DNA from: Bacillus tuaregi
GTDB lineage: Bacteria > Bacillota > Bacilli > Bacillales > Cytobacillaceae
NCBI RefSeq assembly: GCF_900104575.1
Contig: NZ_LT629731.1
Location: forward strand, 4,226,712 to 4,290,711
Reading direction: 5' to 3'
Length of the DNA stretch: 64,000 bases
Shown: positions 15,173-34,491 of the stretch, piece after piece
Layout: the number at the start of each line of letters is the position of its first letter
How positions within the stretch are numbered: position 1 is the first letter of the stretch
Notes under the pieces: generated by a model
Seen by the model: only the letters and a program-made list of their open reading frames with translations
What the model was told of the DNA's origin: nothing
Databases searched by the model: none
Made by a program: the position numbers and the translations under genes

Positions 15173-15179
15173 ACTGTTT

Positions 15180-19746: not shown

Positions 19747-21075
19747 TTAAAGAGGGGTAAACCCATCTCTACTATTTTGATAACTATTTATATTTACAAC
19801 TCTTCCTCTCTCACCCATTAATCCTCGAATGAGATTATTATTATAACTGACCGCTAAGACCTTGTATTTCGATACAAAGGAATTTAAAGAAAACACCCTA
19901 TGTTTTTTATCTTTTTCATCATATATGACAATTTCATTATAATCATAATCATAGCCTCTTAGTTTCACATTGTTCTGTTTGAATTTCATTGCAACAGACT
20001 TTAGTAATACATCCATGGAACGTTCATCCTTAATTACACTACTTCTAACGAATTCAATTACATCTAATTGCACAAATGGCTCCTCTTCAAATAAAACCCA
20101 TCCAAAGTTTTGTAATAAAACTTGGTGAGAAATATTAAAGTAACAGCCTTCAATTGATTCAATTTCAAAATAATAAGACTTATCTTCATTGTCAGCTCTA
20201 ATTATCAAAACACGAATCTTTTCTAAATGCTGATTTAATAACGACATTATCTTATTCATAAACATTTTTTCCGCAATACGGTGAGCGGTCTGATATGTAA
20301 TCATACCGTCATCTTTGATTATATCAAAAGCTGTTTGAATACTTGGATTTCCTGTATTTTGCTTGAACCATCTATAAATTGACTGCGTTACTGCAAAATC
20401 ATTTCTTTTATTACGATCAACATAGTCCTTAAATATACTAATTTCATTTTCCCTTAGACTAAGTAATTCTCTAAAATTGTTAATGGAATCCTCTGAACCT
20501 TTTCCATCCAAAAAATCAAGGTAGTTCTGTTTAAGTACCTTACCAATTTGTCTATATTTATATGAAACTGAATAAGGAATCCAAATTTCATATTTTTCTA
20601 TTTCATTCAACCAGTTTTCTATTATTCTTTTAATACCTGGAAGTTCAGTATTTAGTATGTTGAGTCTTCTAATTTTCCTTGCTTCTTTTCTTTGGTATTC
20701 TGTGTTGCCATCGTTAAACGCATACTCTTTTACACATTCGCTTCCTACATTAATTTCTCTTCTGGTCTGTCTATTGACAATATAATGAATATAGCGATTA
20801 GGTGTACCACAAAGAGAGCATTGAATCCACTTTTCTTTATTTTCTCCTAAATCCTTGGGAAGTTGAGCTTTTTCTTTCCACTCAAGAATTGCTTGTTGTA
20901 AAACAATTGGAAACATATTTTCCATAAAGTTTTTTTCTTTTGCTTGAAGGGAATCTATGAGGTCTTTTGTAATTCTTTCATTCTGCTTTAATAAACCATA
21001 GAACCAGTCATAATCCTGTGTGATTCGACTTAATAAAAGCACTGTATGATCTTTTTTTGTAATTGCTAATTTCAT
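19747..21075 (-). CDS. Large hypothetical protein with zinc-knuckle-like motif
   Basis: A 442-residue protein with AGGGGG upstream of its ATG. Residues 86-89 and 114 (CSLC ... VGSEC) form a C-x2-C ... C motif inside the pattern RYIHYIVNRQTRREINVGSEC, a zinc-binding element that I recall from many phage and plasmid proteins. The rest is helical and then beta-rich at the C-terminus (YYFEIESIEGCYFNI). No catalytic motif was found. It is the largest gene in this small-gene segment and lies between two terminators, so it is probably monocistronic. Confidence 0.55.
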   Translation of the reverse strand: MKLAITKKDHTVLLLSRITQDYDWFYGLLKQNERITKDLIDSLQAKEKNFMENMFPIVLQQAILEWKEKAQLPKDLGENKEKWIQCSLCGTPNRYIHYIVNRQTRREINVGSECVKEYAFNDGNTEYQRKEARKIRRLNILNTELPGIKRIIENWLNEIEKYEIWIPYSVSYKYRQIGKVLKQNYLDFLDGKGSEDSINNFRELLSLRENEISIFKDYVDRNKRNDFAVTQSIYRWFKQNTGNPSIQTAFDIIKDDGMITYQTAHRIAEKMFMNKIMSLLNQHLEKIRVLIIRADNEDKSYYFEIESIEGCYFNISHQVLLQNFGWVLFEEEPFVQLDVIEFVRSSVIKDERSMDVLLKSVAMKFKQNNVKLRGYDYDYNEIVIYDEKDKKHRVFSLNSFVSKYKVLAVSYNNNLIRGLMGERGRVVNINSYQNSRDGFTPL

Positions 21076-21277
21076 TGATTAACCCCCTCTTTTACGAATG
21101 TACGTTCCAATTATATCATTTATCTTAGGCTTCTAAAAATTATATAAAATTTAGTAAATTAAAAAATTGTACTTCACCTTTTCAAGTTACCAATTTGCTC
21201 CACGTATAGACTCTTAATACATGTTGAAGAAAGCAATTATGGAAAACACACTGTAAAATTGAAAACGAACATTAAAA

Positions 21278-21301
21278 TTAGCACGCTAATTAGCGTGCTA
21301 A
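21278..21301 (-). terminator. 24-bp perfect palindrome, probable terminator
   Basis: A perfect 24-bp palindrome with core CGCTAATTAGCG, followed leftward by TTTTAATG. It lies 17 bp after the stop of the 190-residue gene. As RNA it would form a stable hairpin with almost no loop; as DNA it could also be a protein-binding dyad. Confidence 0.6.
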
Positions 21302-21317
21302 ACTTTGCTTTGAGTTT

Positions 21318-21890
21318 TTAGTATTGTGATGAAACATAACCTTCTATATTTGCCTTTACTATGAGAACCATCATTTTTATGTCGTCATTTGTCATTGGTA
21401 CTCGAACCACCACTTCTGGTTTATTTCCAGTGTATCTCGGCACAATTAGTCCTGTTTCAGTCAGCTCACCTGGGCCTGATTCTGCGGAAATAATCCATGG
21501 AACTTTATCACCAGGAGTTATTTTCATTTGTCGAGATAGACTTTTTCCATCAGGTCGCTCCTCCCCTTTTTCTTTTAATACATGTGATGGTCTGCCACCC
21601 ATATCACTCCAAATTTCCTTACAGTATTTATAATTACCCTTTTGCTGTTCTTCCCTTGCCTTAGTAGATAAGGCATTGATTCTTCCATTTAAAGTGTCAT
21701 TGGCAAGGAGCAAGAACTTATCAATGTTTACGTAAACAGAAATTTCGTTCTTTATTCGTTCACCCTTATCCTTAGTCACATCATATTCCAAAAAATTTAT
21801 TTGAACTTTTCCTATTTGAAATGCATTATTTAATACTTCCAAAAACACATTCTTCCCATCAATTCGAATGATTTGATTGGATTCAGGCAT
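21318..21890 (-). CDS. Hypothetical beta-rich protein
   Basis: A 190-residue protein; GAGGAG lies 12 bases before the ATG. The N-terminal 75 residues alternate short strands (NQIIRIDGKNVFLEVL, KVQINFLEYDV), and the C-terminus ends in a helix after PMTNDDIKMMVLIVKANI. The middle (SGPGELTETGLIVPRYTG) is Gly/Pro-rich. I do not recognise the family. No signal peptide or membrane segment. Possibly a single-stranded-DNA-binding or structural plasmid protein, but nothing in the sequence proves that. Confidence 0.5.
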   Translation of the reverse strand: MPESNQIIRIDGKNVFLEVLNNAFQIGKVQINFLEYDVTKDKGERIKNEISVYVNIDKFLLLANDTLNGRINALSTKAREEQQKGNYKYCKEIWSDMGGRPSHVLKEKGEERPDGKSLSRQMKITPGDKVPWIISAESGPGELTETGLIVPRYTGNKPEVVVRVPMTNDDIKMMVLIVKANIEGYVSSQY

Positions 21891-22231
21891 TTCATGTCAT
21901 CTCCTCAAACTATTCATTTGCAATAGTAGTACCACTACTGCAATGTTAGATTGCCCGATTTTCCAACTTATTATCTTTCCAAATTATATGGCTTTTATGT
22001 AAATTATTTTTTACCAAACACCTTTATGACAATGTAACAATGTTAGTCTTTGTAGTTGGTGAAAACAAAATTAACCCATGATTTATAAAGTGATTAATCA
22101 ATCCGAACACTTTTCTGAACTCAAATTTAACTTTGTTGAATTTTATATGAAGCATGGTTTGTTAATATATGTATGTTATTGCTAATCTCCTTATTATATT
22201 TATTGATCGATTCAGCAATCAGAAAATAAAA

Positions 22232-22266
22232 AACCGAAGGATAGTGAACCATCTTAACCTTCGGCT
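22232..22266 (-). terminator. Intrinsic terminator after the 214-residue gene
   Basis: Reading leftward, CCGAAGG (paired with CCTTCGG) encloses a partly paired loop and is followed by TTTTTTATTTT. The rest of the 394-bp gap to the left (21,891-22,231) is A/T-rich and shows no gene. Confidence 0.75.
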
Positions 22267-22284
22267 GATACTTTTTTATTTAGT

Positions 22285-22929
22285 TTAGATTAGGTCAGTA
22301 ACTTTTTTTTTATCTTGTAAGGGAGCAAACTCTTCCTCAAAGCTCATAAACCAATAATTCGATTCGTCTTGTTTACATACTGCTCGTCTACTTTCCCTTA
22401 AACCTGATGGCGTAAAATAATACGCATTTACCCTTTCGATATCATTATCACTGTCATAATAACGATAAATCATCAATGCATTTGACTTTTGGATTGAATT
22501 CCTTTTAGAAATTAATTCATTTAAAACGGTTATTCTCTCAACTGATTCGATGTATTGTATCCCGATAACATTATGTGGAACATAGGCTTCCTCCGTTTTC
22601 GAAAAGAGCTTTTCAATTGTATCAACATCTTTGTCCCATACATTTTCTCTTTCGAGATGTAACGCAAGATATAGGAAGTTTTCCTTATCTTTTCGTGCAT
22701 CCCACTTCCACCATGACAAATCCATTGGCCTTGAACGACCCTTAATTCGGTCAAATTTAGAATCCTCAACAAATGCATCAAAACCCAACATTTCCCCCAA
22801 ATTGGCAAAATAATCAATTTCCCTTTTTGTAAACATTGAGCGGTTATGTAAATGGGTCAAATTCATTCTTCGATAATTTCGAACGTACCCATCAAAAAAT
22901 TGCATAAGATTAAAATATTGTTTTTCCAA
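22285..22929 (-). CDS. Hypothetical protein, possible PD-(D/E)XK-like fold
   Basis: A 214-residue protein. RSRPMDLSWWKWD (about 65-77) followed by FLYLALHLEREN (about 85-96) gives a D ... H-x-E-x-E-N spacing that resembles a subgroup of nuclease-like folds in which EN replaces the usual E-x-K. This is tentative. The start is TTG with GAGGT nine bases upstream; ATG eight codons later is an alternative. It follows the 101-residue helical gene by about 31 bp, so the two are likely cotranscribed and may act together. Confidence 0.45.
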   Translation of the reverse strand: MEKQYFNLMQFFDGYVRNYRRMNLTHLHNRSMFTKREIDYFANLGEMLGFDAFVEDSKFDRIKGRSRPMDLSWWKWDARKDKENFLYLALHLERENVWDKDVDTIEKLFSKTEEAYVPHNVIGIQYIESVERITVLNELISKRNSIQKSNALMIYRYYDSDNDIERVNAYYFTPSGLRESRRAVCKQDESNYWFMSFEEEFAPLQDKKKVTDLI

Positions 22930-22960
22930 CCGAAAGATACCTCACTTTCCCCATAAATGT

Positions 22961-23266
22961 CTATAAATTTCTCGTTTTTTCATACTGCTTTATTCGGGGA
23001 AATTCCCTTCCATTAACAAATAGGTAATACTTTCTTACCGCATTTTGATAAACATTGTGATGTAATCCATCATTCATCACCTCTTGTATTTGAAGCAAGA
23101 GGCTATACATTTTCTCGTCATCCTTAACCTCATTATCCAAATTTACTTTTAATTGCCTTTCAACCATTAATGCTTTTGCAACCCTCGAATTAACCGCTTT
23201 TACTTTACTTTCAATATCACTATTGCTAATAAGAAACTGTCTAAACTCTACCTCTCTCACTTTCAT
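22961..23266 (-). CDS. Small helical protein, SAM-like/core-binding-like domain (tentative)
   Basis: A 101-residue protein starting at ATG after GGGG. The series EFRQFLISNS, KAVNSRVAKALMVERQL, SLLLQIQEVM, YQNAVRKYYLFVNG recalls the compact helical domain found at the N-termini of HNH nucleases and tyrosine recombinases. It has no catalytic residues. Upstream neighbour of the 214-residue protein in the same unit. Function unknown. Confidence 0.45.
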   Translation of the reverse strand: MKVREVEFRQFLISNSDIESKVKAVNSRVAKALMVERQLKVNLDNEVKDDEKMYSLLLQIQEVMNDGLHHNVYQNAVRKYYLFVNGREFPRIKQYEKTRNL

Positions 23267-23424
23267 ATCCCCCAATCAGCATTTTCTAAATAGTACCATA
23301 TAAAAGTGCAGTTGTGATTTAGCATTTTCCCGATCAAACACTGGTGTTTAGCCATTTATGATCAAATAACGGTTGCACAACCAACACCTTGCTCGCAATT
23401 TCATTTCCCTTAAAAAGAAATAGA

Positions 23425-23498
23425 CCACTCATTAATGAGCGGCCCGTTTCAGGTGACTTATTTCCCTTTGATGCTGACTTCTTATTGAGAAGAAGTCA
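23425..23498. terminator. Two hairpins in a gene-free gap
   Basis: CCACTCATTAATGAGCGG (23425-23442) is a near-perfect dyad followed leftward by TATTTCTTTTTA, a likely terminator for the coiled-coil gene to the right. TGACTTCTT/AAGAAGTCA (23475-23498, five-base loop) is a second perfect hairpin. The remainder of 23,267-23,614 shows no gene. Confidence 0.5.
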
Positions 23499-23614
23499 TT
23501 GGAAAGGTAGAGACAGTTAGTGTTACCCGCACCTACTATCACTACTCTTTTATTGTACCATTTTCCTTTACATTGTCATTACACTTTGTAAATGTGAGTA
23601 ATAGGGGACAACAA

Positions 23615-23845
23615 TTACTCCATTGCTGTCTCCATTGAAGTAATGGCATCTTCTATGCTTGATATCGCATTTTCCATTTCGCTTATTGCATTTTCCATTG
23701 CTTCACCTCGTTCTGATACTTGAAGCCCTTCTGGAAAATTATCAAAAGCATCCTGCTCCTCGTCTTTGACACTCTCCAACTCTAAATTGCAATCATTTAG
23801 TTTATTTATTATTGATTGCAGTAATTTTCGACGGGTATTGTTCAT
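23615..23845 (-). CDS. Small acidic coiled-coil protein of mobile elements
   Basis: A 76-residue protein; the ATG at 23845 is preceded by AGAGGG. Its NNTRRKLLQSIINKL start, the central EEQDAFDNFPEGLQVSERG and a repetitive MENAISEMENAI-type tail match a small protein that is common on Gram-positive phages, plasmids and integrative elements; its role is unknown. Heptad-like spacing of Ile/Met in the tail predicts a coiled coil. Confidence 0.65.
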   Translation of the reverse strand: MNNTRRKLLQSIINKLNDCNLELESVKDEEQDAFDNFPEGLQVSERGEAMENAISEMENAISSIEDAITSMETAME

Positions 23846-24037
23846 ATTTAATCCCTCTTTCAATATAGAAATTCTGAATAGCATTTCTAAATACGTACTT
23901 ACATATATAACATCGACAAAAAATTATAGTCTATTTATATATGTCTGCAAGTATTAACAAAATGTCCATATTTGAAGGGGTTTCTTCAAATACTTTTTTG
24001 TTTTAGATGAAGTAAATTTATTGTGTGACAAACTCTT

Positions 24038-24862
24038 CTATCCTAATGTCTTATTAATATACTCCTGCCAATAAGATTCATCTCCATCAATTTCATGAAT
24101 CCAACAATACATTAACAAAATTTCAAGAAACTGTTTTTTTCCTTTCATAAAAGGCTTATTGGATATTCTTCTAAACAAAGAATTAATATTGAATAAATTG
24201 CTCTTTTGCTTGTAATCATACTCATATTTCCGCCAACTCTCCTTGCTCCTAATTCTGTGCTTTACATCCCAAGTTTCCTCATTGTCATAAAAACGGGATA
24301 CATAATCAGAAGCGAAAGCCAACAAATTTACTTGGTGTTTGTCCCAAGATTTATTCAACCATTCCTTCATCTCTTCTGAAATATATACATTGTCAAAGTC
24401 TGACTTAGGGTAACTTTGAATCCGATGTTGGTCTTTAATGAAGTGGAATAACATTTCTGCTTGCTCTTTCAAAAAAGGATTTTTCTTTATGAGTTGAGCA
24501 TAGCATTCATATGATATACTGCGGAACTCTTGTTCAGTATTGTATAAATAAAACAGGTCATCTTTTTTTAAAAAAGAAACTATAGACCGATTCAGTTGCT
24601 TATCATAATTATCAAAAATACTTACTAACCATTCTTGAATCTCAGAATCATAGTTATGGAGCGTCTTTTGGTACTTTTCAAGTCTTTCTTCATTTAACAC
24701 TGTCTTTTCATCCAACCTTGATTCATCAAGATATTGATTAAAATACTCAAATACATAGTTCACACACGTCTGCATATTTTGCGTTTTTAAATCAATATCA
24801 AATTCATTTATTCGATCTTCCTTTTTCCTTTTGGATATGTACTCTTCAAGGGAAACAAGCAT
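24038..24862 (-). CDS. Hypothetical helical protein
   Basis: A 274-residue protein rich in aromatic and charged residues, predicted mainly helical (KYQKTLHNYDSEIQEWLVSIF, FKSKESWRKYEYDYKQ-type segments). No motif, signal peptide or transmembrane span. The ribosome binding site is weak (GGATG well upstream of the ATG). I do not recognise it. It is the last gene before the non-coding and repeat-rich region from 24.9 to 29.3 kb. Confidence 0.5.
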   Translation of the reverse strand: MLVSLEEYISKRKKEDRINEFDIDLKTQNMQTCVNYVFEYFNQYLDESRLDEKTVLNEERLEKYQKTLHNYDSEIQEWLVSIFDNYDKQLNRSIVSFLKKDDLFYLYNTEQEFRSISYECYAQLIKKNPFLKEQAEMLFHFIKDQHRIQSYPKSDFDNVYISEEMKEWLNKSWDKHQVNLLAFASDYVSRFYDNEETWDVKHRIRSKESWRKYEYDYKQKSNLFNINSLFRRISNKPFMKGKKQFLEILLMYCWIHEIDGDESYWQEYINKTLG

Positions 24863-25383
24863 ATATTGTTCACATCCTATCTACTCTTTTCCTAACCTTT
24901 TTATTAATTATACTAAATTCAACCTTTTACCCTTAACCCTAATCGTCTACGTTGTTCAGACATAAAAATCCATGGGTAATTTTCCTCCCCCTCTTTCCCC
25001 GCTCCATCCCTTCTCCCGCTTGCCCTCACGCTCCTTTTCCATAATTTGTAATTGAATATAGTTTGCCCAGCGTTTTTCCCCACTTTTGCTCAATCTTGTA
25101 TCGAATTTGCAATGCCCCAGAGAGAAAAAAGATTGTCCAGAATGGAGAGATAAGGGTTAAGGATTTAAGAGTTAATCAGCCATTCTTTCCCCCTTCTTTT
25201 TCAAGCCTATTCAGGCTTCTCTTCAAGCTCCTCCTCCCGCTTTTACTCTTTCATCGCCCCATTTTGTGTATAACTTGTTGATATCTCACATTTTCTCATT
25301 CTCTTTTTCCCGCTTCATTTCCGTTATTCACAACTTATCCCCCATTCACCCCAAACCTTCCTATCACACTTTTTTTATCATGC
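24863..25383. other. Gene-free interval with pyrimidine-rich plus strand
   Basis: About 520 bp with long C/T runs on the plus strand (CCTCCCCCTCTTTCCCC-like) and no ORF with a ribosome binding site on either strand. I see no repeat or hairpin of note until the terminator at its right end. Confidence 0.4.
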
Positions 25384-25430
25384 AAAAAAAGAACCGAATG
25401 GCGTACCGTCGGTACGCTACTCGATCCTTT
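25384..25430 (-). terminator. Terminator of the GTACC-type repeat family
   Basis: Reading leftward, GCGTACC-gac-GGTACGC forms a perfect stem inside a longer weak stem and is followed by TTCGGTTCTTTTTTT. It closes the 146-residue gene. Related hairpins appear at 26,084-26,110, 26,810-26,850, 27,970-28,010 and 28,625-28,665. Confidence 0.75.
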
Positions 25431-25450
25431 AATAAACATTCGTCTTTTCC

Positions 25451-25891
25451 TTATCCTATATTTTTCCTTGGCTTGGACATTTCAACTATTACTTTACGAA
25501 TATCATCCAACATTCCTTCAAATTCCCCATCAAAGTCAGTATTGAGGTGAAGCAAGGCATTGTCATATTCTTTGTAAATTTGGAGTATCAATCGGATAAT
25601 ATGCCTTGCTTTTCCATCCACTGCTATTCTTGATCCTAATAAAGCAGTAACGTTAAGCTCTACTTCATCCATGTGAGAGATGGCATACAGATCCTTTACT
25701 ATGCTTGATTTATCTTGAATTGGTACATGGTGGATAAGTGATTTCCTAATAAAACTAAGAAGGTGAGAGACTCTTTCCACATAAGGATTATAAGCGGGGT
25801 GTGTAAACAGTTGTTTAATCTCACTTTCAAGCTGGTTGATATTAGATATTACCTTTTTGAACTTCTTTTGGTTTGATTTTATTGTGGACAT
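25451..25891 (-). CDS. Hypothetical helical protein with duplicated-type leader
   Basis: A 146-residue protein starting at ATG after AAAGGAGACC. The frame is open for 39 codons further upstream, but that part coincides with a leader that is also found before the next gene, so it is untranslated. The sequence is helical (KFKKVISNINQLESEIKQLF, HVPIQDKSSIVKDLYAI), without a recognised domain. It may be a plasmid copy-control or accessory protein. The promoter, leader and terminator are shared with the 68-residue gene to the right. Confidence 0.55.
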   Translation of the reverse strand: MSTIKSNQKKFKKVISNINQLESEIKQLFTHPAYNPYVERVSHLLSFIRKSLIHHVPIQDKSSIVKDLYAISHMDEVELNVTALLGSRIAVDGKARHIIRLILQIYKEYDNALLHLNTDFDGEFEGMLDDIRKVIVEMSKPRKNIG

Positions 25892-26050
25892 TTTCGTGGT
25901 CTCCTTTGGGGGTATAGTTTGCGGGTAATCATCAGATGGGAGTGCCAGAGAAGTATTTGATGGCATCCTTTGAGGTGTACGTCGATTGCTTACATTTATA
26001 TAATACATAGGATAAAAGAGCGGGACAATCCTTTATGTGTTCTATATTGT
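25892..26050 (-). promoter_or_regulatory. Promoter and conserved leader, copy 1
   Basis: On the minus strand, TTGTCC and TATTAT are separated by 17 bp, giving a plausible sigma-A promoter. A leader of about 120 nt follows, with blocks CACCTCAAAGG, GGCACTCCCATC, CAAACTATACC and AAAGGAGACC, all of which recur in the same order before the next gene. The conserved non-coding blocks suggest a shared regulatory signal. Confidence 0.55.
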
Positions 26051-26127
26051 CGTAGCCCCTATCCCTTGAAATTACAGTATTCGTACCGATGGTACGCTAC
26101 CCAATCCTTTGTACTTACTAACTCCTA

Positions 26128-26334
26128 TTAATCTTCTTGAAGAATCTTATCTATAATATGCATTTCAAAGATCGTAAGCGGTGCTTCCATTAGCTCTGTT
26201 AAATCAAAGCCATCTTTCTGCATCTGTCTTAAACAATCAATACACATCCCTGTATCTCTGCCGACTAATTCTCTAAAATACAAATAAAATTCTACTGCTT
26301 TTCCTTTTAAATCCATAGTTCCTGGTGTGTTCAT
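26128..26334 (-). CDS. Small hypothetical CxxC protein
   Basis: A 68-residue protein with AAAGGAGACCTC before the ATG. It has MCIDCLRQM near residue 36 (a single C-x2-C) and an amphipathic C-terminal helix. No family recognised; a redox or metal-binding role is possible but unproved. A GTACC-type terminator follows at 26,084-26,110. It shares its promoter and leader with the gene to the left although the two proteins are unrelated. Confidence 0.5.
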   Translation of the reverse strand: MNTPGTMDLKGKAVEFYLYFRELVGRDTGMCIDCLRQMQKDGFDLTELMEAPLTIFEMHIIDKILQED

Positions 26335-26495
26335 ATTAGAGGTCTCCTTTGTATGAGGTATAGTTTGTGGTAAGCGTAAGACGGGAGTGCTTGAAGGGAA
26401 GGATTAGCACACCTTTGAGGAAGTTCATCTACCGCTTATGTATTCATTTTATAACGGAGAGTAATGCAGGACAATGGCTTGGATGTTGGAGTTTG
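26335..26495 (-). promoter_or_regulatory. Promoter and conserved leader, copy 2
   Basis: On the minus strand, TTGTCC and TAAAAT are 17 bp apart, followed by the blocks CTTCCTCAAAGG, GCACTCCCGTC, CAAACTATACC and AAAGGAGACC, matching copy 1. About 300 bp to the right (26,496-26,800) shows no gene with a ribosome binding site. Confidence 0.5.
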
Positions 26496-26805
26496 TTCTA
26501 CCCCTTCAAGCCTTGATACCACTGGAAAAGACCATAGGTCTTTATAGTAAGAGCGAGAGAGAATGGCCGAGAATAACCGATTAAAGGATCGTTAAAATGC
26601 CAGAAAAGAAGGCCTGGCAAGGAAGTGAGAAGATAAGAACATAGGAAAAAGTTTGAATAAATGTTTGAAGAAAGGGAGCGGAACAGAGTAGAGGCAAGGG
26701 TTAAAGGTATGAGATGAAGGAGCGGGAAAAAATGCCCAAAAAAAAGCACGAAGAAATGGAGCCAAAATTTTAGCTTTATCTGCTGTTCATGATTCGTTTG
26801 TTCAA

Positions 26806-26973
26806 ATAAAAAAGAACCGAGACGTACCAACGGTACATTCCCGATTCTGATTTGGTTACAGTTGAGAATAAACTTACATACATAATTGACCCTGTACCCC
26901 TCAGTCTTGACCAGACTTTTTTCTTTAAGCCTATGATTTTTTCATTAAGCCTAAAGAAAATTGGGTGGGAACA
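26806..26973. repeat. Repeat unit U0, 5' module next to a Tn7-like right end
   Basis: Begins CAAATAAAAAAGAACCGAG, continues with a GTACC/GGTAC hairpin and CCCGATTC, then ACATAC-type and CCCCTCAGTCTTGACC blocks. The same blocks in the same order start units U1 and U2. Here the middle of the unit is absent and the right-end array follows at once, so it looks like an internally deleted copy. Confidence 0.55.
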
Positions 26974-27057
26974 GTGCAACTTTTTTATAAACGGTATAAC
27001 TTTATTTTAAACGGTACATCTTTTTTACAAACGGTACAACTTTATTTCAAACCTACA
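26974..27057. mobile_element. Tn7-like right end with four tandem 20-bp repeats
   Basis: Four directly abutting 20-bp repeats run from 26974 to 27053: GTGCAACTTTTTTATAAACG, GTATAACTTTATTTTAAACG, GTACATCTTTTTTACAAACG, GTACAACTTTATTTCAAACC. Read inward from the terminal ACA at 27055-27057, the end is TGT with AATAAAG at positions 12-18, the same spacing as the other ends here. Tn7 right ends carry four closely packed TnsB sites, so this is the right end of an element lying to the left. Its own left end was not found. Replication iterons are the main alternative. Confidence 0.6.
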
Positions 27058-27060
27058 AAG

Positions 27061-27240
27061 TGTTAAATTAGAATAAAGTTTGCAGAAACGAGTAAATACG
27101 TCCATCCCTTGCCATATATAGCCTCAAAGGCATTACCCAACTTATTTCATGAGAATAAAGTTTGCACAAAGATTTGCTCGTTTTAAGTCAGAAATGAAAT
27201 CAATAAATAATAAAGATAAGAATAAAGTTTGCTTAAACAT
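27061..27240. mobile_element. Tn7-like left end with three spaced repeats
   Basis: The end starts TGTTAAATTA, and three copies of AGAATAAAGTTTGC follow at 27070, 27152 and 27219, each continuing for about 20 bp and all in the orientation opposite to the array just left of it. Three spaced TnsB sites over about 150 bp is the Tn7 left-end plan. It lies three bases (AAG) from the right end of the neighbouring element. The mate is either the right end at 29,257, which matches it at 24 of 27 terminal positions, or an end beyond the tns genes at the right window edge. Confidence 0.6.
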
Positions 27241-27375
27241 AGAGGAGAGATCACCAAACAAAGAGAGTAACCTAAACCTCATGAAGGCACCTTACGGTGA
27301 CACCTGAACCAAAACCGATTCTTGACTTCTGATTGTTATAGGGTAATGCAGTTCTTTACTACCCTTGGAATACGG

Positions 27376-27381
27376 TATAAT
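27376..27381 (+). promoter_or_regulatory. Possible -10 box before the YnfA-like gene
   Basis: A perfect TATAAT lies 37 bp upstream of the start; the matching -35 region (TCTTTA) is poor. AAGGGTGG serves as ribosome binding site. Confidence 0.4.
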
Positions 27382-27416
27382 TGCCATGTTAATTAGTTAT
27401 CAAGGGTGGGCATTAA

Positions 27417-27743
27417 ATGATTTACACAATTGTATTGTTTATATTTGCTGGATTTGCAGAGATTGGTGGAGGTTATCTTATCTGGCTATGGTTAAGAGAA
27501 GGTAAGCCATTTTATTGGGGTGCTTTCGGAGGACTAGCCTTAGCGTTATATGGTATTATTGCCACATTTCAAACATTCCCATTATTCGGCAGAGTATATG
27601 CTGCCTATGGAGGAGTATTTATTGTTCTTTCTGTATTGTGGGGATGGGGGATTGATAAAAGAACACCTGATTTATACGATTGGATAGGTGCTGGTATATG
27701 TTTAGTGGGTGTTTCAGTAATGTTATTTGCACCTCGCCAATAA
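27417..27743 (+). CDS. YnfA/UPF0060-family small membrane protein
   Basis: A 108-residue protein of four predicted transmembrane helices: [51 protein letters not shown] and [36 protein letters not shown] and [11 protein letters not shown] are YnfA hallmarks. The family is related to small multidrug transporters; some members export toxic compounds, but the substrate here is unknown. Length matches the family. It is the only intact gene between the facing transposon ends at 27,061 and 29,257 and is transcribed against the surrounding genes. Confidence 0.85.
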
Positions 27744-27945
27744 AGTAAAAAGACAAGAATACATTGAAGGGAAATCAACTAACGAAGGTGTATCCCGAAC
27801 CGTGTAGGTGTGAGTTTGAAAGAAGGTCTTACGATGTCCACTATCCTCCTAAATCCCTTTTCCCTCTTACTCTTTTTCATTTTTCTAAAATGGAACTAAT
27901 TTTTAATAAGTAGAGTTATGTATTTGGGAGACAGGCTTTTCTGTT

Positions 27946-28408
27946 TATTTTCACCTTTATCAAATAAAATAGAACCGAGAAGAGGTATCGTAGATACATT
28001 TCCCCGATTCGTTAGACTAATACATCAGCCTAATACATAGTTGGCTCCCTCTTCCCCTGCCTTGGACAGTTACTTAATGTATAAGAGAGTTGTAAACTTG
28101 CAGATACAGATAATCCATTAGTATACCTTACGGTTTCCCTTGTACCACCACAATTCACCTACTTACCACATGACCTATGCCTAATCATTTATTTATATAT
28201 TTATTTATTTTTTATGGGCGAGTGCTTCTTTATGAAGCATGTTATACACTTCTGGACGTGGGCTTCCCTTGATTGAGTTGGTTTGAATGCTCTTCAGAGA
28301 AAAAGGGGGACGTCCCTTGTGTTGTACTTATGCAGGGATTATCCTCCCCGTAAGGGTAAGCCTGATCCTCTCAGGGAACCTCGTTAAGACTCAGTTTTAT
28401 ATAAAAAA
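27946..28408. repeat. Repeat unit U1, body
   Basis: Starts with ATTTTCACCTTTAT and CAAATAAAATAGAACCGAG, then a GTATC-type hairpin with CCCCGATTC, a block TACATAGTTGGCTCCCTC, ACCTTACGGT, an A/T run and GAAGCAT. U2 repeats all these in the same order at about 630 bp distance but is strongly diverged. No intact gene. The palindromic GGGACGTCCC is at 28,307-28,316. Confidence 0.6.
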
Positions 28409-28516
28409 GCCCTGTAATTATATCCATACTCTGGATACACTCAGGGGGCTCTGTATAAACTTTTTTCTTTATAAACAGATTTTTTCCCATACTTCAAACT
28501 TCAGTTTGGTTTGACA
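28409..28516. mobile_element. Tn7-like right-end relic 1 with terminator hairpin
   Basis: A compound hairpin (AGCCCTG/CAGGGGGCT outside, ATCCA/TGGAT inside) precedes three degenerate sites at about 20-bp spacing (AAACTTTTTTC, AGATTTTTTCC, AAACTTCAG) and a terminus that reads TGTCAAACC inward from 28516. Read leftward the hairpin is followed by T residues and would stop transcription entering from the right. Confidence 0.5.
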
Positions 28517-28574
28517 CCCACATATAATGAACACATTTTAAAAGCAATACCACAATCAACATGCATCCTTATCC

Positions 28575-29148
28575 ATTATTTTCACCTTTGGCTGTGAAAG
28601 TAATTCTCAAACCTTCTCCAAATAAAAAAACCGAGAAAAGATATCCTAGATACGTTCCCGATTCGATAGTCTATATATCAGACTCATACATAGACTGGCT
28701 CCCACTTCCCTTTTTTGAAAAATCATTTTCAGATTGTAAGTGGGGGATAAGTGAGACTGACACTTTATTAACAGAAGTTACATAGGAGACAATAAGAAAC
28801 CTTACGGTTCACCAATACCACCCAGTTCCCTTGTGATATCCCCGTATAGACTTGGCTGTCATACAGTGGTATCCCATGCTCTGGACAAACAAGAACCCCC
28901 GATACCTGATGACTCCTCTTACATGACCAATCCCTTATTATTTATATATATTTATTTCATAGGAGAAACCACTTGAAGCATTTTACACGTTACAGGGTGT
29001 GGGCATTCGTTCATTGAATTAGTTTCGGGTCTGTATACCTTTAGAGAGACATAGGGACATTCCTTTCACCCTACTTACTCAAGGGTTACTCTTCCCGTAA
29101 GGGAATTCCCTACAGATACCTCATTATGGCCATAAATCCACATAAAAA
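28575..29148. repeat. Repeat unit U2, body
   Basis: Diverged second copy of U1: ATTTTCACCTTTG, CCGAGAAAAG hairpin CCCGATTCG, CATACATAGACTGGCTCCCA, ACCTTACGGTTC, TTTATATATATTTATTT, GAAGCAT. Contains a tnsD gene fragment that U1 lacks. No ribosome-bound ORF. Confidence 0.6.
28849..28912 (-). pseudogene. Relic of a tnsD/tniQ gene
   Basis: 64 bp match positions 61,453-61,516 inside the intact tnsD of this window at roughly 78% by hand count. Translated leftward it reads HQVSGVLVCPEHGIPLYDSQ, against HQIPGVLVCPEHNTPLYDSQ in the intact protein, i.e. the CPEH half of the TniQ zinc motif. Flanking sequence does not continue the match. It shows that an older Tn7-like element of the same kind once occupied this place. 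Confidence 0.7.
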
Positions 29149-29257
29149 ACCCCGTTTATACATCCATATACTGGATACACTCACGGGGCTTTATGCAAAC
29201 TTTATTCTTCTTATGCAGACTTTTTTCTTATTCTGCAAACTTTATTTTGTTTTAACA
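29149..29257. mobile_element. Tn7-like right end 2 with terminator hairpin
   Basis: CCCCGT/ACGGGG with inner ATCCA/TGGAT forms a hairpin (29149-29188) followed leftward by TTTTTT. Three abutting 20-bp sites follow: TATGCAAACTTTATTCTTCT, TATGCAGACTTTTTTCTTAT, TCTGCAAACTTTATTTTGTT (29192-29251). The terminus is ACA at 29255-29257. Inward it reads TGTTAAA then AATAAAGTTTGCAGAA, matching the left end at 27061 at 24 of 27 positions. The flanking five bases (TAGTT) do not match those outside 27061 (CAAAG), so no target duplication pairs these two. Confidence 0.6.
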
Positions 29258-29343
29258 TAGTTACAAAAACGGTTAGGTAATTTAAAAGAAATTAATCTAC
29301 TAAAATTGTTTAATTCACCGTTTTCTTGAAGCAGGAAATTCTT

Positions 29344-29766
29344 TTAATCGAAAAACTCCATATGTGTTTTTTCTTGCTTATAGTAATCCAATCTATCTTG
29401 TAAAGTACCTGTATGGAACTCAAATTTATGACCGTCTGGGTCAGTAAAGTAAATAGATTTTTTATCTCTGACATCTCTCGGACGACCTGATAAGATGTTT
29501 ATGTTCAATTCCTTTAGTCTATCGTACATTTTATCAAACTCAGTGTCTTCAATTGAAAATGCTATATGTGTGTATGATTGGTTTATTTCATTACGAGGTA
29601 TATCTTTTTCAACATTCAGAGCCAGCCACATTCCATTCAAATCAAAATATGCGGTGCTTCTACCTTTAACTAACAATTTAGCATCAAAAACATTTTTGTA
29701 AAACTCGATAGAATTATCTAAGTTAGAAACTGAAAATAAAAAATGATTAAGCCCTTTTATCGACAC
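29344..29766 (-). CDS. fosB: FosB metallothiol transferase (fosfomycin resistance type)
   Basis: A 140-residue vicinal-oxygen-chelate protein that is near-identical in pattern to Bacillus Fos[61 protein letters not shown]. Metal ligands are His8, His67 and Glu116. The enzyme adds bacillithiol or cysteine to fosfomycin, opening its epoxide in the cytoplasm. The start is GTG with AGGTGAT upstream. It is the last gene of the one-strand gene row, next to a transposon right end. No damage seen. Confidence 0.93.
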
Positions 29767-29844
29767 TGTATCACCTCAACTTTTTTAAGAAATAAGGGAA
29801 TCCCTATTGTTGAAGATTAGCCCCCGTTAATTAAATAAAACAAT

Positions 29845-30213
29845 TTACTGTGAGTTTGATTTAGTAACAGTCCCTTGATGAAAAAACATTTGCCATCTAC
29901 CATCTATATATTTCCAAATTGAACTTCGCAAAGTGTCCTGCTTTCGTGTTTCATCTCTTACTCGGTATGTAGTTAACACAGCCTCCGAGGATAAAGGATG
30001 AATTTCAAAATCATGAAGTGACAATTCTCGTACTCCTACTCCACCCTCACCAACACAATCTTTTTTGTATATAACAATACCTGAACTTCCAAATTCAAAA
30101 AAATTATCTGCCAACAATCTATATAGTTCCTCACTTGATGTACGAATTTCAGGATTTAAATGACTTTCCTCCAGTTCTTTCAAATGACTTTTAAGGTTTG
30201 GTTCATTTATCAT
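29845..30213 (-). CDS. NTF2-like/DUF4440-type protein
   Basis: A 122-residue single-domain protein: helix with LKELEESHL, LYRLLADNFFEFGSSG, then strands ELSLHDFEIHPLSSEAVLTTY, and a final RSSIWKYIDGRWQMFFHQGT. This order and the closing W-x-x-x-DGxW-x-x-x-FHQGT are typical of DUF4440/SnoaL-like proteins, which bind small molecules or act as minor enzymes. Ribosome binding site AAAGGTGG. Substrate unknown. Confidence 0.75.
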   Translation of the reverse strand: MINEPNLKSHLKELEESHLNPEIRTSSEELYRLLADNFFEFGSSGIVIYKKDCVGEGGVGVRELSLHDFEIHPLSSEAVLTTYRVRDETRKQDTLRSSIWKYIDGRWQMFFHQGTVTKSNSQ

Positions 30214-30279
30214 TTTATAGTAGCCACCTTTCCCTGCAAAATAGAATTAAAGTTAATAATTCACTATAAGTAGTCAATT

Positions 30280-30345
30280 AACCTTCTTGAAGTAAACTGC
30301 TCCAATAGCACAAGAAGCGACTGCCTTGTTCTGCAATCACCCCTG
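30280..30345 (-). repeat. Intergenic repeat of the gene row, copy A
   Basis: Minus strand: TTCAACAGGGGTGATTGCAG, AACAAGGCAGTCGCTTCTT, GTGCTATTGGAGCAGTTTAC, TTCAAGAAGG. A shortened relative (TGCTATCGAAGCAG) lies at 30,620-30,640. Located in the gap between the NTF2-like and 60-residue genes. Confidence 0.5.
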
Positions 30346-30385
30346 TTGAATAAAAGCACTGGTTTGCCTTCCTTTAACTTAATAA

Positions 30386-30568
30386 CTATTTTTTCCCTTG
30401 GTGCATTAAGTTCAATTGAAAGAAAATTCCACTTAATAAAGCAACTATCATTCCTAACATTACAGCATAACCTGTAAATACTTCATTCCCATACAAAACA
30501 CTACAAATAACTATTCCACCAACTCCACCAACAACCATTAGTAATAACCAAGCAAATAAAAATGCCAT
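30386..30568 (-). CDS. 60-residue two-helix membrane protein
   Basis: GGGGGG lies before the ATG. Two hydrophobic helices (LFAWLLLMVVGGVGGIVICSVL and VMLGMIVALLSGIFF, the first cut here to its core) connected by a short polar loop. No family recognised. It stands alone between two intergenic repeats in the gene row. Confidence 0.55.
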   Translation of the reverse strand: MAFLFAWLLLMVVGGVGGIVICSVLYGNEVFTGYAVMLGMIVALLSGIFFQLNLMHQGKK

Positions 30569-30654
30569 TTTATCCCCCCGTACATATATTTATATGTTTT
30601 ATTTTTATCATTTTAATTAAAGTATCTGCTTCGATAGCACAAGAAAGTTTATGA

Positions 30655-31164
30655 CTATTCTTCTTTCGCTTTTTGCAATACTTTTTTTATAAAAGGGGCT
30701 TTATTCTCTGTATAAGCAACTCTGTCAAAGCGATAATTTCTTGCCAAATCAATTTTTAGTTGGTGGTATTCTCTCATAACATCAGGATTATTTCTTAAAT
30801 AATCTCTAAACAAAATTTGATTGTTCCAATGCTCCCCTTCAAACTGATAAAAATGTAAATGATGTGTACCTGCTCTCCATTTTCCCTTCCTAAAGAAGCG
30901 TCTTTCTGGAAACTCTTTATGGTAGACAAATTCATATCCTATTTGTTTTAAAGGCTCGATAAATTCGTTAACTACCTCCAAATCATTTACTCCAATAGCA
31001 ATATCTAAAATCGGTTTAGCCACTAACCCTTCAATAGAGGTACTTCCTATGTGTTCAATAGATATAACCTTTTCAGATAGTATTTCCTTTAGTTTAAATT
31101 TTTCATTTTCATATTGTTTCGACCAATTTGGGTGCCACTCTTCAATTGTTATTTCCTTATCCAT
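30655..31164 (-). CDS. GrpB/UPF0157-family nucleotidyltransferase-fold protein
   Basis: About 169 residues from the ATG at 31164, which has GGGGGGA just upstream. IEEWHPNWSKQYENEK, IEHIGSTSIEGLVAKPILDI, LHFYQFEGEHWNNQILFRDY and YTENKAPFI are the signature segments of the GrpB family, a minimal nucleotidyltransferase fold (GST then D-I). The reaction is unknown; relatives modify small molecules. Its length fits the family. Confidence 0.85.
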   Translation of the reverse strand: MDKEITIEEWHPNWSKQYENEKFKLKEILSEKVISIEHIGSTSIEGLVAKPILDIAIGVNDLEVVNEFIEPLKQIGYEFVYHKEFPERRFFRKGKWRAGTHHLHFYQFEGEHWNNQILFRDYLRNNPDVMREYHQLKIDLARNYRFDRVAYTENKAPFIKKVLQKAKEE

Positions 31165-31189
31165 ACTCCCCCCTAACTTCAATAAAAAA

Positions 31190-31270
31190 GTTTTTATTGA
31201 ACAGGCCTACTTCTTTAACATAGGAGTGACTGTAGTGTTCTGCAATCTTCACCCGTAGTTCAACATCACT
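31190..31270 (-). repeat. Intergenic repeat of the gene row, copy B
   Basis: Minus strand: GTTGAACTACGGGTGAAG, ATTGCAGAACA, CAGTCACTCC, then a run to TTCAATAAAAAC. Matches copies at 30,280-30,340 and 31,733-31,806 block by block. Confidence 0.5.
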
Positions 31271-31282
31271 ATTTAATATTCA

Positions 31283-31690
31283 TTATTTTTGTAATATGTA
31301 TCTGGCTCCAGATGTTCTAATTAATTTGGATACTCCTTCAGGATGATAAGGCATTAATCTATCTGCCTCCTCCAAATCTACCCATTCAACTTTAAGAATA
31401 TTTTCCTCTGTTGGAATTTCTTCAGGTGATTTCAGAACTTGACCCTGAAAGGTAATAAAATACACATGATTTTCATTAATAAATGCTTCATTAACTGCAA
31501 TAATATCGCTAACTGTAACATCATAACCTGTTTCTTCTTTAACTTCTCTAATGGCTGCTTCTTTTAGAGTTTCTTTTACTTCAACTGCTCCTCCCGGCAA
31601 GGACCAAGTTTTATTCCTATTTAGTACCATTAAAACCTTATTAGTATTCTCATCAAATAAAAGTGTATATGCTACATCAACACGCTTCAA
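31283..31690 (-). CDS. Nudix hydrolase
   Basis: A 135-residue single-domain protein with a perfect Nudix box: G at GAVEVKETLKEAAIREVKEE followed by TGYDV (GX5EX7REUXEEXGU). Nudix enzymes hydrolyse nucleoside diphosphates linked to another group using Mg2+. TWSLPGG precedes the box as usual. The start is TTG with AGAGGT upstream. Substrate cannot be told from sequence; oxidised nucleotides, capped nucleotides or an antibiotic-like nucleotide are possible. Confidence 0.88.
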   Translation of the reverse strand: MKRVDVAYTLLFDENTNKVLMVLNRNKTWSLPGGAVEVKETLKEAAIREVKEETGYDVTVSDIIAVNEAFINENHVYFITFQGQVLKSPEEIPTEENILKVEWVDLEEADRLMPYHPEGVSKLIRTSGARYILQK

Positions 31691-31732
31691 ATTTCATACC
31701 TCTTTTCTCCAAAGAATTATTTTATTTTTTCT

Positions 31733-31806
31733 TGTTAAACTTTCCTGCCATTAGCGAAAGAAGCGACTGCTCTTGTTCTGCAATCGCCACCATTAGTTGA
31801 ATATCG
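31733..31806 (-). repeat. Intergenic repeat of the gene row, copy C
   Basis: Minus strand: ATTCAACTAATGGTGGCGAT, TGCAGAACAAGAGCAGTCGC, TTCTTTCGCTAATGGCAGG, AAAGTTTAACAAG. Closest to copy A. Shorter relatives (CCCGTTAACTCAA and CCATTAGCGAAAT) occur near 32,450 and 33,480. Confidence 0.5.
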
Positions 31807-31810
31807 AAGT

Positions 31811-32374
31811 TTATATTTGATGAATGATTAACTTACTCCAAGTCGCCTTCCAATCCTTTTTTAAAATACGCTGATTGTAAATAGATGCAAGGTCTTTGTT
31901 TTCCAAAAAATATGGAGTCGGTTTAACTACCAAATTGACAACATCACTAATCCCATAAGGAGCCGTTAAAATAACTTTATCCCTTTCATCTAACTTTACT
32001 CCTAATGCTGTTGCTGTTTCTGGAAATTTTGAAATAGCATCAACAGAAGAAAAGTATGGTTCAACATTATTCCTGAGGTGCATTCTGGCTTCATTCTTAA
32101 CCGACCAAGGTATGGTTGGTAAAAGAGATTTGAGTTTTTCTTCCAACTTCTTTTCTTCAAATTCATTAAGTTTTGTTGTATCAAAGTAGATCACATCAAT
32201 ATCTGGAATCGGTGTCCTTACACTAAATCCATGTAAAGCATCCCAAACTTTTGACCTAACAAAACCTGCACAAATCCACCAATCTAGTAAGTTTAATGAT
32301 TTGGCAGTTTTCAATATTTCCATCATCCATTCATCTTCTTCTATAAGAGTAATGATTTCCTCCTCATTAAACAC
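31811..32374 (-). CDS. Nucleotidyltransferase-family protein (NTP_transf_6-like)
   Basis: A 187-residue protein. WWICAGFVRSKVWDALHG (about 31-48) and IPDIDVIYFD (about 56-65) form the G-x-x-R-x-x-x-W-D ... D-x-D core of this family, in which two Asp residues bind the metal of a transferred nucleotide. The closing PYFLENKDLASIYNQRIL is also characteristic. It is near full family length. GTG start with AAAAGGAG upstream. Relatives are found near antibiotic-modifying genes, but the acceptor here is unknown. Confidence 0.8.
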   Translation of the reverse strand: MFNEEEIITLIEEDEWMMEILKTAKSLNLLDWWICAGFVRSKVWDALHGFSVRTPIPDIDVIYFDTTKLNEFEEKKLEEKLKSLLPTIPWSVKNEARMHLRNNVEPYFSSVDAISKFPETATALGVKLDERDKVILTAPYGISDVVNLVVKPTPYFLENKDLASIYNQRILKKDWKATWSKLIIHQI

Positions 32375-32456
32375 AACAATAAAACTCCTTTTTAGAATAG
32401 GTAAGAATAAAATTATTCTTTTTTCAGTTTGGATTCTTCTTTAAGGAATGCACCCG

Positions 32457-32954
32457 TTAACTCAATAAGTTTTTTCTTTCATATACATGAAAATAGTAGT
32501 TATACGGATTTTTATCATTCTTTATCCCTTTTTGGGCAAATACCTCATTCCATTCCTCATAATTCACTTCTGGAAAAAAAGTATCTCCTTCGAATTCATG
32601 ATGTATTTTTGTGATGTACATTTTCTCAACATAAGGGAAAAACAAATTATAAATCTGTTCTCCTCCGAAAATAAAAATTTCTTCTTCGTTTTTACATAAC
32701 TCAAAAACATCTTCTATTGAATGAACAATTTCACAACCATTAAAGGTAAACCCCTTATCTCTCGTCAGAATAATATTTCTTCTGTCAGGTAAGGCTCTTC
32801 CGATTGATTCAAGGTTCTTCCTACCTAATATTATCGGATGTCCCTTTGTAGTATTTTTAACATATTCCCAGTCCTTGGGAATCCTCCAAGGAATGTCATT
32901 CTCTTTGCCAATCACTCTATTCTTATCCATCGCAGCAATCAAAGAAACTTTCAT
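32457..32954 (-). CDS. dfr: Trimethoprim-resistance-type dihydrofolate reductase (DfrG/DfrD/DfrK group)
   Basis: A 165-residue DHFR: SLIAAMDKNRVIGKENDIPW (active-site Trp-Arg region with IPKDWEYVK), HPIILGRKNLESIG (NADPH loop), FIFGGEQIYNLF, and YYFHVYERK at the end. The overall sequence is, from memory, very close to DfrG-type plasmid DHFRs of Gram-positives rather than to a chromosomal FolA. It reduces dihydrofolate with NADPH and would give trimethoprim tolerance if insensitive, which sequence alone does not prove. No thymidylate synthase gene lies next to it. Confidence 0.9.
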   Translation of the reverse strand: MKVSLIAAMDKNRVIGKENDIPWRIPKDWEYVKNTTKGHPIILGRKNLESIGRALPDRRNIILTRDKGFTFNGCEIVHSIEDVFELCKNEEEIFIFGGEQIYNLFFPYVEKMYITKIHHEFEGDTFFPEVNYEEWNEVFAQKGIKNDKNPYNYYFHVYERKNLLS

Positions 32955-33080
32955 TTATAACACAGCCTTTTTAACTAATTTACCATCTAATTTCTTATTT
33001 CTATCAAAAAACCTTTTCTCATTATCCTGCCCGTTAGTAAAAAATCGTTCCTCCCTTATTACTGAAACACTACCTGTTAG

Positions 33081-33440
33081 TTACATAAGACCTCCATCTT
33101 CTAATCCAGTTAAATATGCATTTTTAAATAGTTCATAAAAATAGGAATCCTCACCAAAATAATCTCTGAATCCGTTTAATACTTCTTCTTGGAGTTCTTT
33201 GTCAGATTTCCATATAGGCATTGCCCCTAAATCATCTTCAAACTGTCTTTCAATTAGATCAAGAGTATCATCTGAAAAAAAATTCCTATTTTCATCTATC
33301 CACGTTAACCATTCAGTTATTATTTCTTTCTCTTGTTTTCGAATAGAAGATTTGCCCTTGTGAATAACTTCCTCTATGTCAGATAGTATAAGCGAAACAA
33401 ATAACTCGATGGTAAATTCACTAAAATCTCTAATATTCAT
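33081..33440 (-). CDS. Hypothetical acidic helical protein
   Basis: A 119-residue protein with GAGGAAG before the ATG. Mainly helical, acidic (pI low by composition): SEFTIELFVSLILSDIEEVI, ITEWLTWIDENRNFF, LNGFRDYFGEDSYF. No recognised family. It is the first gene of the row in the transcription direction and lies 3' of the right-end relic. Confidence 0.5.
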   Translation of the reverse strand: MNIRDFSEFTIELFVSLILSDIEEVIHKGKSSIRKQEKEIITEWLTWIDENRNFFSDDTLDLIERQFEDDLGAMPIWKSDKELQEEVLNGFRDYFGEDSYFYELFKNAYLTGLEDGGLM

Positions 33441-33552
33441 TAAGATTAACTTCCTCCAGTTCTATCCTTGTTTAAATGCATCCATTAGCGAAATAACAAA
33501 TCAACGTTTAAGGCAAAAAAATAAGCATTATCCAGTATGACCACAGTTTGAG

Positions 33553-33666
33553 ATAAAAAAGCCCCGTGGCCATAACCATATGCTAGTTACACCCACAAGA
33601 CTTATGTTACCTTTATTCTTCTTATGTAGACTTTTTCATTCTGCTAACTTTTCTTTCTTTTTGACA
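33553..33666. mobile_element. Tn7-like right-end relic 3
   Basis: A decayed hairpin starting GCCCCGT (with TAACCATATGCTAGTTA inside) is followed by three sites, GTTACCTTTATTC, GTAGACTTTTTCATT and GCTAACTTTTCTT, at 20- and 17-bp spacing, and a terminus reading TGTCAAAAAG inward. One base longer than the other ends. It has lost the unit body found with relics 1 and 2. It separates the resistance-type gene row from the small-gene segment to the right. Confidence 0.5.
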
Positions 33667-33703
33667 CAGTCTTTCTCTAATGTTCCTATTAGCGGGAGTT
33701 ATT

Positions 33704-34204
33704 TTAGACGTAAGCATTTGAATCAACCTCAATTTTAGGTTCAAAGTGTTTAAGGAGTTTCATTATATTCCTCTGAAGACACTTATCAACTTTCCCCTCC
33801 TTTATCACTTGTTTGTATGCTTTAATTTTTTCAATATCATTAAAACAATCTTTGTTTAAATCATAAAAGTCAGTAGGAGTTCTTTCTGTTATTGTACAAT
33901 ATCCTTTATTTAAATAAAGATTTACAACCACTATATTGAATTTTCTTTCAATAAAATACCTCATAATATCTTCATCCAAAAGTGTTAATATGTCATGAAT
34001 GATTACACTTTTAATACCTTCCGATTCCAATTCGTTTAAATACTTTCGTAAAGTATGTTTGTGATTACTATACTCAAACTTACTTTTAACAAAAATCCCT
34101 TTCATCAACGCAGCATTACACTTTATCGCATATTCGTAATCCAACATTTCCTTGTTATCGCTAGGTTGAATATGCATAAAATATCCAGCATTCTTTAATT
34201 CCAT
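33704..34204 (-). CDS. Hypothetical protein, possible resolvase-like fold (paralogue 1 of 3)
   Basis: A 166-residue protein with GGAGG before the ATG. GYFMHIQPSDNKEM at the start, IKSVIIHDILTLLDEDIMRY in the middle and FIERKFNIVVVNL after it have the alternating strand/helix order of the serine-resolvase N-terminal domain (Y-x-R-x-S, then the D-R-L segment), but the catalytic Ser and Arg are absent. Two neighbours at 36.8 and 37.3 kb share the pattern. Function unknown; the fold assignment is tentative. Confidence 0.45.
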   Translation of the reverse strand: MELKNAGYFMHIQPSDNKEMLDYEYAIKCNAALMKGIFVKSKFEYSNHKHTLRKYLNELESEGIKSVIIHDILTLLDEDIMRYFIERKFNIVVVNLYLNKGYCTITERTPTDFYDLNKDCFNDIEKIKAYKQVIKEGKVDKCLQRNIMKLLKHFEPKIEVDSNAYV

Positions 34205-34205
34205 A

Positions 34206-34451: not shown

Positions 34452-34491
34452 TAAGAGATCGCCTCCTTTAAGTATGTTAATGCTTGTTTTC

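Follow-up and report, generated by a model that had tools for sequence, protein, structure and literature searches.

Organization of the locus

The 64,000-nucleotide stretch of Bacillus tuaregi DNA analysed here (the window; positions 4226712-4290711 of contig C16 of genome G000) carries a Tn7-like island, X, that continues past its right edge and is bordered on both sides by copies of a small element with Tn7-like ends, M. The window sits in a 4.37-Mb contig beside glmS, that is, at the chromosomal attTn7, and not in the plasmid setting supposed by an earlier interpretation (the sequence-only reading). Self-comparison of the region revealed two long exact repeats, M (2,197 bp) and a second element, C (2,021 bp), each at 100% identity. 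Beyond 64 kb, 27061-29257 recurred exactly at 66773-68969, where the second M ends beside glmS and is followed by CAAAG; beyond the right edge of the window, the order is the rest of tnsB, tnsA, the second M and glmS. M starts with TGT and finishes with ACA, with spaced sites at its left (L) end and packed sites at its right (R) end. The M pair is flanked by CAAAG on both outer sides, the right-hand copy lying 22 bp from the glmS stop codon (68997-68999; glmS is on the minus strand). No target duplication was found at the junctions between M and X, where the inner flanks (TAGTT after the first M, AACTA before the second) are parts of the 13-bp termini of X. These termini, inverted repeats of TAGTTACAAAAAC at 29258-29270 and 66760-66772, lie directly against M, have related, shorter counterparts in other genomes, and are perhaps relics of X's own ends.

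Homologues of TnsA, B, C and D are present in order on X. Their genes lie outside both mini-elements and are enclosed only by the outermost ends. The sole open reading frame of at least 90 amino acids in M is a UPF0060 gene, and M has no transposase of its own, unlike the copies at the borders of a composite transposon bounded by insertion sequences (IS). The only tns match inside M is a 23-residue tnsD-like stretch (28849-28917, resembling tnsD residues 143-165 at 78%), and M also contains a second, degenerate R-end region (28168-28517, compared with 28921-29257). A CCGAG..CCCGAT palindrome was considered as a shared recombination site and rejected: one pattern occurs in M of G000, G233 and G234 and in C, and it is missing from M of G121, G139 and G224 and from a C-like element in G170.

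The sequence-only reading had described two abutting Tn7-like ends of opposite type at 26974-27240, and all the features it gave were present: four repeats of ~20 bp with ACA as the last bases at 27057, then TGT at 27061 followed by three AATAAAGTTTGC sites in the opposite orientation at 27072, 27154 and 27221, with AATAAAG at positions 12-18 from TGT in both ends (counted by eye). A strict scan for TGT with packed sites on both strands of a 163-kb region of the chromosome matched only 27057 (and its one-repeat shift at 27038), 29257 and 68969, so these ends are not chance matches. The array at 26974-27057 matched R ends found in relatives (L040, L042 and L043) at a distance of 126-127 bp upstream of tnsA; this match and the chromosomal site rule out a plasmid origin as the source of the repeats, and an Rfam search of 24900-29400 gave no match at gathering scores. 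The 3-bp gap between the two ends is present as described and belongs to the 5-bp target duplication CAAAG, which overlaps the final CA of the neighbouring R end.

The same reading explained the paired ends by two tandem islands stacked at one att site. Stacking of Tn7-like R and L ends was borne out, with an independent parallel in G090, whereas the count of two was not: the islands number more than two, and the second, bracketed by M, is no simple transposon. Simple elements do stack (G090), and the R end of the older element T1 (Table 1) is of that kind, which favours ordinary stacking of Tn7-like islands, the repeats being incidental. However, the L end that starts at 27061 has its R end at 29257, X sits between two M copies, and no duplication separates M from X; the second M copy rules out two simple tandem islands and, together with the matching outer duplications, makes ordinary stacking highly improbable here.

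Table 1. Coordinates, in window numbering, of the features discussed in the text
Feature	Position	Strand	Remarks
Part of Y, between C copies	1..24952	.	tnsABCD of Y left of window, -11700 to -5324
P4-type phage/plasmid primase-helicase in Y	1546..3705	+	
ParM-like partition protein in Y	3869..4855	+	
C copy 1 (TGTTC..GAACA)	24953..26973	+	2,021 bp; identical copy at -24329 to -22309
R end of older element T1, orphaned	26974..27057	-	packed TnsB-type sites, terminal TGT at 27057
CAAAG target duplication	27056..27060	.	second copy 68970-68974, outside window
M copy 1	27061..29257	+	2,197 bp; L end, UPF0060 gene, two R-end-like regions, R end
L end of M copy 1	27061..27232	+	TGT and three spaced AATAAAGTTTGC sites
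UPF0060/YnfA membrane protein gene in M	27417..27743	+	E 2.3e-43
R end of M copy 1	29190..29257	-	packed sites
X, island between M copies	29258..64000, on to 66772	.	13-bp inverted termini TAGTTACAAAAAC abut M
FosB/FosM-type fosfomycin thiol transferase gene	29344..29766	-	
dfrG, trimethoprim-resistant dihydrofolate reductase	32457..32954	-	
Xer-like tyrosine recombinase	40653..41549	-	above Pfam cut-off; NCBIfam Xer models below theirs
Primase-like protein with helix-turn-helix, candidate plasmid replication protein	42402..43856	+	weak own matches; stronger in relatives
tnsD (TniQ + TnsD)	60040..61947	-	
tnsC	61954..63606	-	
tnsB, 3' part	63599..64000, on to 65749	-	
tnsA	65740-66591		outside window, next after tnsB

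Altered TnsA

Aligned with Tn7 TnsA, the protein of X has Q, N and K at the positions of E63, D114 and K132, which we take to be the catalytic residues of Tn7 TnsA. The changes of E63 to Q and D114 to N were found in all 17 close rows of the alignment (11 genomes). Among its 42 rows, six of which repeat an element listed under another name, 27 depart from Tn7 at one or both of E63 and D114, 14 have the two residues conserved and one has no data, and K132 is kept in 42/42. A second group, with T at D114, comprises five rows, including the operon of Y and that of G170. Each operon of these two groups that was examined has a TnsA that departs from that of Tn7 at one or two of the three catalytic residues. 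A tree of 34 rows, with a midpoint root only, was made from 43 rows including Tn7 by leaving out L061-L065, L067 and L068 (taken as duplicates) and L049 and L050 (partial). One branch (100/96) split 20 altered from 14 intact sequences, the latter including Tn7, and these sequences make a single loss of the TnsA catalytic residues likely. The ratio of nonsynonymous to synonymous substitution rates (dN/dS) was 0.06-0.12 in 7 pairs of altered TnsA, and the altered protein is therefore kept, under purifying selection. TnsB keeps D, D and E. From the substitutions we infer that cutting by TnsA has been lost.

A proposed route into attTn7

We propose that a plasmid-like circle of X and M integrates at glmS by replicative transposition of M, a reading to which we assign a probability of about 0.7. 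M, from L end to R end (2.2 kb), would be the transposing unit; the tnsABCD genes predicted to move it lie on X, outside M, and their TnsB proteins would act on the ends of M. TnsD would pick attTn7 at the end of glmS, and M would transpose there from circular X+M. With a TnsA that lacks its catalytic residues, TnsB would nick the 3' ends only, and because of this loss we propose that transposition is replicative, yielding a cointegrate in the order target duplication, M, X, M, target duplication. The circle would be freed again by recombination between the M copies, with a solo M staying behind.

X+M, which would exist in circular form, is probably a plasmid or plasmid-derived, because X has a primase-like gene and an Xer-like recombinase. 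The primase-like protein (484 amino acids) itself gave weak matches to HTH_36 and to phage replication/primase families. HTH_36 was matched by 5/5 members of its family, AEP-TOTE by three of the five (best E 7.9e-13), the window's own copy not among them, and PriCT_1 by one. Distant homologues occur in 29 plasmid records (26 Staphylococcus, 2 Mammaliicoccus and 1 Macrococcoides). One 6.5-kb plasmid with a homologue has no replication gene by name, in a gene table that may be incomplete. The protein had no match among PDB or phage records, and its AlphaFold model, with a mean predicted local distance difference test score of 47, was not used. No partition gene was identified in X. The recombinase shows the R, K, HxxR, H and Y motifs by eye, and on this ground a TnsF-like target selector that has lost catalysis was rejected.

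M-X-M in other genomes

A TnsA at least 86% identical to that of X was found in ten further genomes: G029, G119, G121, G137, G139, G141, G223 and G224, from a search of 193 genomes, and those of the records L073 and L075. At all 11 loci, one per genome, AACTA (AACAA in L071) followed by an L end lies ~182-188 bp upstream of tnsA, and where the locus extends far enough, an R end and then glmS come next (L072, L074, L075 and L076). The R terminus reads TCA in L073; the glmS-side M copy at G233:C1:903402 ends in TCA, not ACA. L077 (TnsA 70% identical) retains sites of packed type in the interval from tnsA to the L end, and these suggest that X formerly possessed an R end of its own at this place.

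Two complete M copies are present in 6/11 operon genomes (G000, G121, G139, G224, G233 and G234). Within a genome the copies are 100% identical in G000, G139 (three copies), G224 and G234, and differ by one mismatch in 2,209 bp in G233; those of G121, 4,188 and 4,225 bp long, are 100% identical over the single aligned stretch reported (1,027 bp). When different genomes are compared, the best-matching pieces of M are 74-92% identical, and the size of M ranges from 1.3 to 4.2 kb. Matching outer 5-bp duplications occur in five of the six (CAAAG, ATTTT, ACCAG, CTATT and ATTAT), with none between M and X. Elsewhere the assemblies give partial views: in G137, X fills an entire contig that has M ends at either side, M of G223 is spread over three contigs, and in L071 (C. 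horneckiae, taken as the same genome as G119) the contig stops 19 bp into M.

These comparisons bear on the possibility that M-X-M is one rigid 42-kb transposon that moves by cut and paste with its outer ends, gene conversion keeping the M copies identical. Outer 5-bp duplications fit any whole-unit insertion of Tn7 type, and purifying selection on TnsA is also in its favour. However, the TnsA catalytic residues differ from those of Tn7 in all 17 close rows, the M copies are alike within a genome and unlike in sequence and size between genomes, and the internal pair of L and R ends at each border would be left unexplained; we consider this arrangement unlikely. Entry in two steps, with a solo M inserting into attTn7 and an M+X circle then recombining with this resident M, would also yield outer duplications and none inside, and a solo M with its own duplication (TGAAT) does exist in G139. 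A resident M of another lineage would, however, give two unlike hybrids, whereas the copies are identical or nearly so in six genomes. Moreover, the same X is found in two hosts, with 12 differences over 37,657 positions between G000 and G137 (71 bases of M on each side included), although their glmS genes are only 75% identical. Two-step entry is thus quite improbable, and we favour direct replicative integration of the X+M circle.

An older element and a second composite

The orphaned R end at 26974-27057 belongs to the older element T1, whose tns genes lie ~51-58 kb upstream of it, with the two C copies and the island between them, Y, in the intervening DNA. Next to the left C copy lies a tnsA of the L040/L042/L043 kind, broken off near codon 34. 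It seems that T1 was split by C-Y-C, and that M-X-M landed later beside glmS, 2 bp into the old end. A recombinase gene lies directly upstream of the tnsA of Y. In G170, which has a related operon, two identical C-like copies carry the outer duplication AAAGT, and one of them is beside glmS, so that the second TnsA group offers two instances of an island between paired mini-elements; G117 has a 127-bp repeat at a contig end.

Points against replicative integration, and comparison with intact operons

Several observations weigh against replicative integration of an X+M circle. Substitutions at the catalytic residues are not proof of abolished cutting, and gene conversion could keep M copies alike. 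The outer flanks of M-X-M do not match in G233 and G137, the outer left flank of G137 adjoining the tnsB of another element from about residue 181, and the outer flanks of C-Y-C differ and lie inside T1. DNA loss beside a replicative element would explain the mismatched flanks of C-Y-C and G137. G141 has one M only, with one L and one R end. G029 has the operon, yet only one L and one R end of M type, its sole strong R end of this type lying 58 kb on. Searches for the primase-like gene gave no match in G119 or G121, and the match in G233 lay outside X; the recombinase of X was not matched in G121, G223 or G233. Not all copies are intact, with stops in tnsA of G141 and in the primase-like gene of G029. 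No border pair of M or C type was found around five other altered operons. A free X+M molecule was not found either: the TnsA and TnsB matches in plasmid records, where the sequence-only reading had suggested looking for relatives carrying a single element, were all below 60% identity, and viral contigs gave none; absence of the circle from these collections is weak evidence. Finally, the genomes are related, and counts across them are not independent.

G029 (L029-L032) carries two altered-TnsA operons and has a 476-bp exact direct repeat between its L and R ends. Around the other altered operons, direct repeats of at least 90% were not found in G041 (3 contigs), G070 or G089 (60 of 86 kb), and one of 358 bp, at 99.7%, was found in G081.

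Altered and intact operons differed in their surroundings. In the 1.3 kb that precede tnsA, a packed R array was present at 9/14 intact loci versus 0/10 altered loci (p 0.002; 24 of 25 loci, L050 with no residues at the sites being left out); in L034 an R-like site lies farther out. A ParM, primase or X-type protein was encoded near 9/12 altered operons versus 0/6 intact ones (p 0.009), in stretches of unequal length, several of them partial; the altered operons with no such gene nearby were those of G089, the second operon of G029 and the part of G170 that was read. Both tests ignore relatedness, and the altered and intact classes were entered by hand. Among genomes with intact TnsA, G014 has one simple element with the duplication AGGGT and G090 has two elements in tandem, the first with the repeat GTTTG; the tns genes are inside in both genomes, and neither had paired border repeats listed. 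At the G090 junction an R end, 3 bp and an L end follow one another, GTTTG overlapping the neighbouring end by 2 bp (by eye). No L end in the right orientation was found in the stretches fetched from G049 and G027.

Relation to known systems

As in Tn7, there are TnsABCD homologues, packed R and spaced L ends with a terminal TGT, and insertion just past glmS with a 5-bp duplication. Unlike in classical Tn7, the tns genes lie outside the L-R mini-element, which stands at both borders, and unlike in cut-and-paste Tn7 the catalytic residues of TnsA are altered. In IS26 translocatable units, a circle with one mobile copy inserts so that two direct copies flank the passenger. M-X-M resembles this in its two direct copies around a passenger; it differs in that M is no IS, the passenger itself encodes the transposase, and insertion is at glmS.

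The closest likeness to the cointegrate order comes from work excerpted from PMC8188705, in which the TnsA D90A mutant of the Vibrio cholerae CRISPR-Tn gave >95% cointegrates, and cointegrates of this mutant and of ShCAST, which lacks TnsA, held the donor backbone between duplicated mini-transposons. The backbone is flanked by two mini-transposon copies there as here, but those donors were laboratory plasmids, whereas M-X-M occurs in natural genomes and its backbone carries the tns genes. An excerpt of PMC10293859 reports 39.1% cointegrates in a Tn6022 assay with tnsA, so loss of TnsA is unneeded for them, a further point against our proposal. Elements of Tn5053 type and others that lack tnsA and have a resolvase, as outlined in part of PMC8649781, share the predicted replicative transposition and a tyrosine recombinase; here, by contrast, purifying selection maintains a tnsA whose residues are altered, and the recombinase is a putative resolvase. 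In the literature library searched, including passages of PMC8649781, PMC11406308, PMC8188705 and PMC10293859, no natural group was seen to combine altered TnsA residues with border mini-elements.

Cointegrates are usually taken as an intermediate or a side product that needs resolution. Those described here look like a natural, inherited end product, in a lineage that would have kept TnsA for a role other than cutting. At about even odds, we would extend this to a group of Bacillota plasmids that enters the chromosome through a Tn7-like system turned replicative as TnsA lost its catalysis, with a mini-transposon integration cassette copied into attTn7 as a stable cointegrate; the plasmid could exit when its two cassette copies recombine, and a solo mini-element would stay behind. 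If cointegrates are indeed the natural end product, the jobs of TnsA would have been separated in nature, the spread of large islands between genera into glmS, including the one with dfrG, would be explained, and a lone mini-element in an annotation may be the sign of a larger island.

Other genes of X and Y

The dfrG region (32435-33039) shares 99.3% identity, across 605 bp, with copies on plasmids of Enterococcus, Staphylococcus and Listeria. X also encodes an AlwI-type nuclease, a second type II nuclease and two D12 methyltransferases (45333-50496), and an SMC/AAA protein with a match to the defence family Ppl (52826-55501). Y contains type III restriction-modification genes (5243-10083) and, left of the window (L006:4468-7891), two genes that resemble the anti-phage pair IteS/IteA at scores below the curated cut-offs.
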